NCBI GenBank assembly: GCA_943326315.2
Contig: CALPSU020000003.1
Span: 1 to 34,508, forward strand
Source of the DNA: Chryseobacterium gleum
GTDB lineage: Bacteria > Bacteroidota > Bacteroidia > Flavobacteriales_D > Crocinitomicaceae
DNA length: 34,508 nt
Direction: 5' to 3'
The stretch's first letter is position 1. Each line of letters begins with the position of its first letter. Below the pieces are notes generated by a model. It was not told where the DNA came from, did no database searches, and saw nothing but the letters and a program-made list of their open reading frames with translations. Shown one piece after another: positions 5,793 to 24,518 of this stretch. The position numbers were made by a program, and so were the translations under genes.

Positions 5793-6380
5793 TTATTGAG
5801 TAATCCATTCAGTAGAATATTCTAAAGGTTTTCTGTGCGCTGAAGGCCAATCTATAGAAGGGTAACCAATATAGAACAATCCAAGGCATTTGTCTTTTTT
5901 TGCTAAGTTTAAAAATTCATTAGTTTTTTCGTTGTAGATCAATTTCGGTGTTGCCCAAAAACCACCTAATCCATAAGCAGTACAAGATAAATGTATGTTT
6001 TGGATAGCACAAGCTACCGCTTCAATTTCTTCGATTTCCAATATTTTTTCTTCCTTTTGTCTCTCCATACAAACGGCTATTACGACAGACGATTTTAATG
6101 GTCTAGTTATTAGTTTTGCAAATTTTAAATCATCTTGATTTTCTTTAGGAGTTAATTCTAGATATGTTTTAGCTAAAAAATCACTAAGCTTTTGCAATCC
6201 TCCTTCTGTGAATACTTTAAATCTCCAAGGTTGTGTGTTCCCATGAGTTGGAGCCCATTGAGCATTGTTTAAAAGTAATTCAATTTGTTCTTTATGAACT
6301 TTTCTATCGCTAAATTGTTCAGGGTAAATAGTTCTTCTGTTTTTTATTAAGTCTGTTATTTCGGATAAATTATATTTCAT
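5793..6380 (-). CDS. Nitroreductase family protein
   Basis: 195 aa; IKNRRTIYPEQFSDRKV, NNAQWAPTHGNTQPWRFKVF, GLGGFWATP, LGLFYIGYP. Confidence 0.9.
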   Translation of the reverse strand: MKYNLSEITDLIKNRRTIYPEQFSDRKVHKEQIELLLNNAQWAPTHGNTQPWRFKVFTEGGLQKLSDFLAKTYLELTPKENQDDLKFAKLITRPLKSSVVIAVCMERQKEEKILEIEEIEAVACAIQNIHLSCTAYGLGGFWATPKLIYNEKTNEFLNLAKKDKCLGLFYIGYPSIDWPSAHRKPLEYSTEWITQ

Positions 6381-21842: not shown

Positions 21843-22973
21843 ATGAATTATTTAAAAGGAAAAATAAAAGAAATTTTACTGATTTTCATTTTGCTAGTGT
21901 TGGTTTTTCCAGCTATTCAAAAAATGTTTAACATAATAAAAGTAGAATGGTTGAAGGGTGCAATAATTAAAATCGATAAGAAAGAATTAACGACTTATAA
22001 TTGGTTTTCAGGAGAGTATCAAGAACAATCAGAAAAATACTTTAACGAAAATTTCGGATTTAGAAATGCTTTTATTCGATTGAATAATGAAATTGGATTT
22101 GATTTTTTCAGGAAAGCCAAAGCAAATGGAGTTATCATAGGAAAGAACGATTATTTATTCGAAGAGAATTATATAAAAGCTTATTATGGGACTGATTTTA
22201 TAGGGAAAGATAGTATTGATCAAAGAATGGATCGATTAAAATATGTTCAGGATACCTTAAAAAAACTTAATAAAAATATTATTTTGATTTTTGCAGCGGG
22301 AAAAGGATCGTACTATCCAGAATATATTCCCGATAAATTTAAAGTAAAAAAACGAATGACTAATTACGATTATCACTTAAAATTAGCAAAAGATTTTAAA
22401 ATTAATTATATCGATTTCAATGACTATTTCTTAAAAAATAAACATAAATGTAAACACCCGCTTTATCCCCAATATGGCATTCATTGGAGTAAATATGGAA
22501 TGTGTTTAGCTGCTGATTCAATAATTCGTTATATCGAAAAAATGAGAAATATAGATATGAATAATCTTTATTGGAAAAAAGTAGATATAGAGAATCCTAA
22601 AGATGAAGATTACGATATTGCAAATGGGATGAATTTAATCTTTAAATTAAAAAGTTTTAAAATGGGGTATCCTCAAATAAAATTTGAAAATGCAAAGTCA
22701 AAAGTGAAACCTAACCTATTAGTTGTTTCAGATAGTTATTACTGGGGTATGTTTAATTTTGGAATTTCTAATGTTTTTAATAAGAGTCATTTTTGGTATT
22801 ATAACAAAGAAGTTTATCCTGAAACTTTTTCAAAGCCTTTATTTACAAGTGATATTGATTTGAAAAAAGAAATAAATGATCACGATGTCATTATAATTAT
22901 GTCAACACAAGCTACTATGACAGATTTAGGTTGGGGATTTATTGAAAAATTATATCAAACCTTAAAAAAATAA
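21843..22973 (+). CDS. AlgX/AlgJ-like SGNH-fold acetyltransferase partner of the MBOAT protein
   Basis: 376 aa, N-terminal TM; KANGVIIGKNDYLFEENYIKAYYG, QYGIHWSKYGMCLAADSI, LLVVSDSYYWGMF; 2 bp after the algI-like stop. Confidence 0.8.
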   Translation: MNYLKGKIKEILLIFILLVLVFPAIQKMFNIIKVEWLKGAIIKIDKKELTTYNWFSGEYQEQSEKYFNENFGFRNAFIRLNNEIGFDFFRKAKANGVIIGKNDYLFEENYIKAYYGTDFIGKDSIDQRMDRLKYVQDTLKKLNKNIILIFAAGKGSYYPEYIPDKFKVKKRMTNYDYHLKLAKDFKINYIDFNDYFLKNKHKCKHPLYPQYGIHWSKYGMCLAADSIIRYIEKMRNIDMNNLYWKKVDIENPKDEDYDIANGMNLIFKLKSFKMGYPQIKFENAKSKVKPNLLVVSDSYYWGMFNFGISNVFNKSHFWYYNKEVYPETFSKPLFTSDIDLKKEINDHDVIIIMSTQATMTDLGWGFIEKLYQTLKK

Positions 22974-22999
22974 AACTTCGATCAATTAAGACCCATTAA

Positions 23000-23068
23000 A
23001 AACAAAAAGTAGAAAAGACGGGCGTCCTTTCTACTTTTCTTAATCAACCTAACCTAACCACCTAAATC
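23000..23068 (-). ncRNA. Candidate small RNA of about 65-70 nt
   Basis: Minus strand: promoter TTG-N20-TATATTTG (23103..23073), then GATTTAGGTGGTTAGGTTAGGTTGATTAAGA, then AAAAGTAGAAAGGACgcccGTCTTTTCTACTTTT hairpin and U-rich tail. Confidence 0.45.
23005..23038. terminator. Intrinsic terminator hairpin
   Basis: Arms AAAAGTAGAAAAGAC (23005-23019) and GTCCTTTCTACTTTT (23024-23038), 14/15 paired, 4-nt loop; usable on both strands. Confidence 0.85.
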
Positions 23069-23072
23069 AATA

Positions 23073-23103
23073 CAAATATAAATATTATTAAATTAATTTT
23101 CAA
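23073..23103 (-). promoter_or_regulatory. Candidate promoter TTG-N20-TATATTTG for the putative small RNA
   Basis: caaatata at 23073-23080 and caa at 23101-23103 on the + strand. Confidence 0.5.
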
Positions 23104-23183
23104 AATTTATTTTGTTAAAAAATCAAAATATTTTCACAAAGTATTAGATAGTATATAACGTTTTAATTTAAATTTTCATAGTA

Positions 23184-24518
23184 TCACTTCTTAACCCATC
23201 TAAATATATGTTTCAATCTTACTCTATGACCAAATTGTAATATTCCATTTGCATAAATTCTACCTGCTAAACTCAATACTACTAGAGAAGAAATAATCAA
23301 TATCAATAAAGATAAAAATAGTTCGTAAAAGTGCCCGGTTTTATAACCTTGAGAAAGTTTAACCATTACTACAACTGGAGATGTAAAAGGTAAATAATGG
23401 AATAAAGTCGATAAAGAATTTTCAGGGTTTTGCATAGAATAATATCCACTATATAACGCAAAACAAAGTAAGAAAATTAGTGGTAATACAAATTGTTGAC
23501 CATCGCTTTCAGAACCAGCTGAAGCACCAATCGCAGCAAATAAAGTTCCGTAGAAAAAATATCCAATTATAAAGAAAACAATAAAATATCCCGTCATAAA
23601 TGTGAAGTTAATTCGTTCATATACAAGATCTACAAATTCATTGTATTCTCTAGCTGAGAAAAATTGCTCTTTACTAGATTGTGTTAAAACCTCATTAGAT
23701 AATTCTGTAATATTCAAGTTAGAAGCATCTAATAAATTTGGGAAAAGATTTTCTCTCATAAAATATAATCCAAATCCTATAAACACAACCCAAATTATAA
23801 ATTGAAAAAAAGCTGCTAGACCTATTCCAATTATTTTACCAAGCATTAATTGTTTGGGACTTACACAGCCTAAAAGTACTTCAACTATTCTGTTGCTTTT
23901 TTCTCTTGAAACACTTCGTAGAATTGTCATCCCAAATAGAAAGATAAAGATGAAAATAACAGTGCCATAAAAAAGGCCAACCCAACCACTTAAATCAGAA
24001 GCTTCATCATTTGGGTCGTATACATTTCTAAAACCAATGGTTAAAGGTTGTTTAATTTTTCTAAAATCTGAGATCGAAAATTTAGTAAATTGTTTAACAA
24101 GAACCTCTTCTAATCTTCTTTCAGCTTGATATTGAATTCTTGTTTGCATGGTCATAGAAGGCTTCTCTCTAAAAAAAACAAAAGCTGTTTTGTTTGAAAG
24201 AATTTTTTCATTAATCTCAAGTAAAGCATCAAATTCTTGGTATTGTTTTGCTTTTTCAAATTCATGGGTTTGAATGTACCCATCTGCAAAAGAGTAGGAG
24301 ATGGCTTCATCTTCTCTGGATAACATTTTATTTTCCATGATACCTGCAGGATCAACGATCAATACATTCCAGTTCTGTTTTGTTTGACCGCCCAAGACAA
24401 ATAATAAATATATAAGCCCTAAAACCATTAAAGGTCCAAGAATTGAAAGTATTAAAAAAGAACGTGCACTAATTCGTTCTTTCCATTCCCTAAGTGCTAT
24501 TATCCAGCTATTTCGCAT
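23184..24518 (-). CDS. ABC transporter permease (NatB-like/ABC-2 family)
   Basis: 444 aa; ALREWKERISARSFLILSILGPLM, SREKSNRIVEVLLGCVSPKQLMLGKIIGIG, HYLPFTSPVVVMVKL. Confidence 0.9.
   Translation of the reverse strand: MRNSWIIALREWKERISARSFLILSILGPLMVLGLIYLLFVLGGQTKQNWNVLIVDPAGIMENKMLSREDEAISYSFADGYIQTHEFEKAKQYQEFDALLEINEKILSNKTAFVFFREKPSMTMQTRIQYQAERRLEEVLVKQFTKFSISDFRKIKQPLTIGFRNVYDPNDEASDLSGWVGLFYGTVIFIFIFLFGMTILRSVSREKSNRIVEVLLGCVSPKQLMLGKIIGIGLAAFFQFIIWVVFIGFGLYFMRENLFPNLLDASNLNITELSNEVLTQSSKEQFFSAREYNEFVDLVYERINFTFMTGYFIVFFIIGYFFYGTLFAAIGASAGSESDGQQFVLPLIFLLCFALYSGYYSMQNPENSLSTLFHYLPFTSPVVVMVKLSQGYKTGHFYELFLSLLILIISSLVVLSLAGRIYANGILQFGHRVRLKHIFRWVKK

Follow-up and report, generated by a model that had tools for sequence, protein, structure and literature searches.

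Hfq, ProQ and CsrA are reportedly missing from Bacteroidota, and in few species of this phylum is it known how small RNAs (sRNAs) work. The FopS family of Bacteroides thetaiotaomicron comprises 14 copies of about 65-70 nt, which have a single-stranded conserved 5' seed part and a terminator; FopS is bound by the RRM-1 protein RbpB, pairs at the translation start regions of susC, and has been reported on a phage too and as deposited in Rfam (PMC11697453). RbpB was reported to bind, with preference, the sequence GUAGGAUA, with a KD of 5.1 uM (PMC12119571). Within the Flavobacteriales, Rfp18 of Flavobacterium psychrophilum is strongly structured, and its pairing region is in the third stem-loop (PMC9723704).

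We analyzed a 34,508-nt stretch of DNA (the window), which carries on its minus strand, at 22998-23070, a predicted transcript of about 65-73 nt that we call type A. The comparative evidence makes us highly confident that it belongs to a genuine, undescribed multicopy family of regulatory RNA genes of about 65 nt. Like FopS (with GibS), the family has multicopy paralogues of about 65-70 nt, predicted housekeeping Bacteroidota promoters of their own, intergenic positions and a phage copy. The architecture, compared with FopS by description, is also similar: the 5' region is single-stranded and conserved, and an intrinsic terminator comes after it. FopS is bound by RbpB, and genes for RRM-1 proteins occur in most genomes that carry the present RNAs. 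However, FopS is found in Bacteroidales and the present RNAs in Flavobacteriales, the window sequence matched no family of this kind in Rfam at E<=10, and the targets of FopS are susC start regions, whereas the two partial genomes searched here showed no start-region enrichment. By analogy, the RNAs may work like the FopS kind, but membership of the FopS family is not claimed, as the comparison with FopS was made by its published description. The likeness to Rfp18 is that both sRNAs are conserved in Flavobacteriales, but the present RNAs are multicopy and have a single terminator hairpin and an open leader. Identity with Rfp18 was rejected, since one stable hairpin and a weak, non-covarying leader fold were found instead of several stem-loops. 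A search of the window against Rfam gave no match at the gathering threshold and no convincing match at E<=10, none being near its cut-off, and the sole match above the threshold for the related subtypes was a tRNA gene. A literature search by motif and family name revealed no prior description of the RNA family.

The predicted promoter (minus strand, 23073-23103) consists of a TTG at 23103-23101, a 20-nt spacer and a -7 box, TATATTTG, at 23080-23073. Downstream lies a G-rich, C-free leader, GATTTAGGTGGTTAGGTTAGGTTGATT, with three UAGG units (minus strand, 23042-23068), which stands out by its near-invariance across copies. With its flanks it reads TTGATTTAGGTGGTTAGGTTAGGTTGATTAAG (about 23070-23039), and the stretch GATTTAGGTGGTTAGGTTAGGTTGATTAAG runs from 23068 downwards. 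The leader at 23042-23068 is predicted to form the 5' end and the functional region of the RNA, as a seed and/or a protein-binding site. The terminator hairpin (minus strand, 23004-23039), identified by its fold, stem covariation and loop conservation, contains the conserved loop region GACGCCCGTC. In its stem, AAAAGTAGAAAGGAC-gccc-GTCTTTTCTACTTTT, 15-16 pairs form, one of them G-U, and the tail TTTTTGTTTTT follows; the U-rich terminator tail occupies 22993-23004 on the same strand, with the predicted 3' end at about 22998. The fold of the locus has a z of -3.97 against dinucleotide shuffles, and the hairpin is the only terminator-like site in 22800-23300 (0.1 expected). The telomere-like repeat GGTTAGGTTAGGTT occurs only once within the window, and the three TAGG units of the leader have P = 0.002 by shuffling. 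On the plus strand, a gene for an AlgX/AlgJ-type SGNH protein ends at 22973, and on the minus strand an ABC-2 permease gene has its stop at 23184.

The initial annotation had proposed a compact orphan sRNA with its own promoter, a G-rich repeat body and an intrinsic terminator in the gap between the AlgJ-like gene and the ABC permease. The neighbors match this description, and all the minus-strand elements that it named (TTG-N20-box, leader, hairpin and U-rich tail) are present where it placed them, except that the 5' end shifts to about 23070-23068, where it likely lies, and the leader block measures about 28-29 nt. In general, 5' ends are expected 0-3 nt upstream of GATTTAGG. Comparative genomics strongly backs the proposed sRNA, but not its status as an orphan, as the locus is one member of a family that has many copies and several related subtypes. 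Two further suggestions did not survive. Pairing of the leader with the anti-Shine-Dalgarno region at the 16S rRNA 3' end has a predicted energy of -10.8 kcal/mol, which 19% of shuffled leaders equal, and the proposed 5-codon GTG open reading frame loses its stop codon in several copies, varies at one codon in others and is absent from type B.

A comparison of 201 bases around the feature with 59 related genomes revealed matches that span mainly the region from the -7 box to the terminator. The best matches had 77-91% identity in 11 of 11 genomes of the same genus, with several copies each, and several other genera also gave matches. Conservation was assessed in 52 aligned copies and in a profile built from 101 distinct ones. 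It extends well beyond the terminator hairpin, the opposite of the result that the initial annotation had said would refute it. Identity in the leader, GATTTAGGTGGTTARGTTAGGTTGATT, is 1.00 at most positions, and the type-specific 5' end, GATTTAGGTGG, is near-invariant. Housekeeping promoters of Bacteroidota have the form of a -7 box TAnnTTTG and an upstream TTTG. At a fixed offset of -12, the TA of this box is kept in 98% of the 101 copies and its TT in 99-100%; at this offset 61 of the 101 have the full TAnnTTTG and almost all have TAnnTT (about 1% by chance). A TTTG peak lies about 19 bases upstream of the box. The stem varies freely in sequence. Compensatory changes, which the initial annotation had suggested looking for, are present at 12 of 14 stem pairs (142 cells versus 42 in shuffles), and the stem covariation score is 0.47 versus 0.20 in shuffles. 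The loop ACGCC[CTA]GT is found in 76 of the 101 copies, with the consensus ACGCCYGT. A weak hairpin within the leader itself is unsupported, since its pairs never covary in the alignment. Near-invariance of the leader and retention of the putative promoter box and the loop across dozens of independent loci is beyond chance, and the alignments demonstrate purifying selection on the predicted promoter, leader and loop, together with the predicted anatomy of the gene.

The covariance model R1 matched the window at 22999-23072 (G000:C3, E 3.3e-24), a copy that was also a training sequence of R1, and it matched 115 other genomes of the same family; of 150 genomes of the Crocinitomicaceae, the taxonomic family of the window, 116 have the RNA. 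There were up to 15 matches per genome, some of which are related subtypes. Across this family of aquatic bacteria, a genome can have up to about a dozen nearly identical copies of the gene. When 84,980 species genomes were searched for the exact leader pattern, 95 stretches were obtained. Their titles and shared contigs place them in Fluviicola, Brumimicrobium, Lishizhenia and other Flavobacteriales, i.e., Crocinitomicaceae, and by this pattern the family appears to be limited to the Crocinitomicaceae. The titles Chryseobacterium gleum, Kuenenia, Actinomyces (including Actinomyces viscosus) and Glaciecola look misassigned, because several of these sequences are contigs of genomes placed in the genus or family of the window. 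One such sequence, CP034120.1, titled 'Glaciecola amylolytica', bears the RNA three times (L136, L137 and L147) and is apparently a Fluviicola-like genome under a wrong label.

The neighbors of 86 copies fall into 89 unrelated protein clusters, which argues against a cis partner; their contexts are often not convergent, and no functional theme was found among them. A WbqC-like/carboxypeptidase-like locus carries copies in Lishizhenia, Fluviicola and Brumimicrobium, suggesting that it is an ancestral site. Tandem clusters of two to four copies were also found (L037, L040 and L074). A plasmid search gave no match, and two IMG/VR contigs (L318 and L319) bear a full type A gene. In L319 (IMGVR_UViG_3300031548_000029, 5870-6070), the gene is complete with a promoter-like region and a terminator, and the genes around it encode a Mu-type portal, a Mu F-like protein, a terminase, a tail terminator and two DNA methylases. 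These genes identify L319 as a real, Mu-like phage genome. L318 is by inspection a host region with DnaE- and AccC-like genes, in which a D12 methylase gene adjoins the sRNA. The sequences thus establish carriage of the putative sRNA gene by a phage and suggest that phages also carry sRNA regulation.

The UAGG repeat of the leader matches what an RRM protein of Bacteroides has been reported to bind: GUAGGAUA, the ligand of RbpB, is close to GUAGGUUA and UUAGGUUA of the present RNAs. RRM_1 genes are found in most of the sRNA carriers. Across the Flavobacteriales, 19 of 59 RRM-positive genomes versus 2 of 61 RRM-negative ones contain the motif TAGGTTAGGTT with a stable hairpin and a T-run behind it (P about 2e-5, kinship ignored). 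In the two RRM-negative exceptions the hairpins, at about -9 kcal/mol, are weak and not terminator-like. The association weakens within the family, where the sRNA is present in 106 of 130 RRM-positive and 10 of 20 RRM-negative genomes (odds ratio 4.4, P 0.004, kinship ignored). It is also not strict, as no RRM protein was detected in either of the two genomes of genus g4 with type A copies, nor in G005 and G064. Because the co-occurrence is weaker within the family and genus g4 is an exception, we treat binding of the leader by an RRM protein as likely, not proven. In a genome of another Flavobacteriales family (G054, f10), seven RRM_1 proteins are encoded, some in tandem (G054:C6:1439-2504 and G054:C236:57-844).

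The explanation that we somewhat favor, by analogy with FopS and RbpB, is that the copies are sibling trans-acting sRNAs, with UAGG repeats bound by an RRM protein and a leader that pairs with mRNAs. We infer that transcription of each copy would start at a housekeeping-type Bacteroidota promoter of its own and end at the intrinsic terminator, leaving the single-stranded, C-free 5' leader as the working part. The single-RRM protein of these bacteria would bind the tandem UAGG units, and the leader, above all its exposed 5' end, would base-pair with target mRNAs and change their translation or stability. The presence of several copies may serve dosage or separate inputs. The evidence on targets comes from start-region tests in two partial genomes. 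Complementarity to the leader at translation start regions was not above that of shuffled leaders in 714 Lishizhenia genes (G016), and the same test gave no enrichment in 634 genes of G099. The target searches, which used duplex energy and k-mers, also covered the start regions of 551 mixed genes, again with no enrichment. An enrichment of CCTAAAT, noticed post hoc in the first genome, was discarded after it was not replicated in the second.

Because no start-region targets were found, a protein sponge remains a serious rival, though we consider it rather unlikely. The UAGG repeats would then sequester the RRM protein, much as CsrB does with CsrA, the sRNA itself would pair with no mRNA, and the copies would provide dosage. 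This agrees not only with the lack of start-region complementarity but also with the co-occurrence of the invariant leader with RRM genes and with types A-E, described below, sharing the UAGGUUAGG repeat and not a common 5' sequence. However, each RNA offers only two to three binding units, the type-specific 5' ends are near-invariant too, which a sponge does not need, and genus g4 has no detectable RRM gene. The model recalls CsrB/RsmZ in its repeated short protein-binding motif and several copies per genome, but here the RNA is very short and has no GGA-in-loop motif. CsrA reportedly does not occur in Bacteroidota of this kind (PMC12119571). The converse, improbable in our judgement, is a family that acts purely by base-pairing, in which the RRM protein has no role and its co-occurrence reflects shared ancestry. 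The near-invariant 5' end GATTTAGGTGG and the RRM-negative carriers would fit this model, but it leaves the UAGG core common to the types unexplained, and the target searches gave no signal for it.

Two simpler readings deny the RNA a regulatory function of its own. The multicopy, sometimes tandem occurrence and the copies on a Mu-like phage and beside a phage-type methylase gene (L318) could point to a mobile repeat, REP/MITE-like or spread by phages, that merely contains a terminator. This is very unlikely, as copies in the same genome differ in their stems but keep promoter, leader and loop, the same WbqC-like/carboxypeptidase-like locus is occupied in three genera, and no transposase is tied to the copies among their neighbors. 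The hairpin with T-rich flanks between convergent genes could also be only the shared terminator of the AlgJ-like and ABC-permease genes. As the whole explanation this was refuted, and we give it almost no weight: the 5' block and the promoter are far better kept than the stem, the copies lie in unrelated gene contexts that are often not convergent, and the invariant leader, fixed -7 box, covarying stem and kept loop together rule out a plain shared terminator. A secondary terminator role at this locus is possible. For the favored reading of RRM-bound, mRNA-pairing sRNAs, a near-invariant multicopy family with a UAGG motif makes the question of RRM proteins as sRNA partners in the phylum directly testable. 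More tentatively, the Crocinitomicaceae, and perhaps Bacteroidia more widely, might use modular tiny RNAs in which a variable 5' tip for specificity is joined to a shared UAGGUUAGG part, the platform on which a eukaryote-like RRM protein would sit, and to a terminator that is disposable. Present as many siblings and hijacked by phages, such RNAs would form an Hfq-independent sRNA-chaperone system that runs parallel to FopS/RbpB or predates it.

Weaker matches of the covariance model gave at least five further types (B-F), in each of which the leader is followed by a terminator. Type B has the leader AGTAGTAGTAGGTTAGGTTGATTAGTGTGA with the GACGCCCGTC hairpin, types C and D have the leaders CAGTGAATAGTGGTTAGGTTAGGTTRACA and AGTTGTAAAAGGTAGGTTAGGTTAGGTTAAA, type E is represented by L204, and type F has the leader TTAGGTTTCATAAGTAGTAGTGTTA with the ACGCCCGT hairpin. 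The UAGGUUAGG repeat is common to types A-E, with a 5' tip that differs by type, and the loop ACGCCYGT is common to types A, B and F. Type B is present in many Crocinitomicaceae genomes (L174-L185, L187-L192 and L205). Type F was found at L212, L213, L197 and L211, in tandem at the first two, and its TTTCATAA is complementary to UUAUGAAA, i.e., an AUG start context. Weak model matches in other orders are a mixture, many of them plain terminators. Those in one class-level family (f24; L214-L218, L223 and L227), which belongs to another Bacteroidia order, look genuine: they have C-poor leaders, AGTTAAGTTTAGTTAGGTTAGGTTAG, with a GATGCCCGTC or GGGCGCCCGC hairpin, and possibly represent a wider superfamily.
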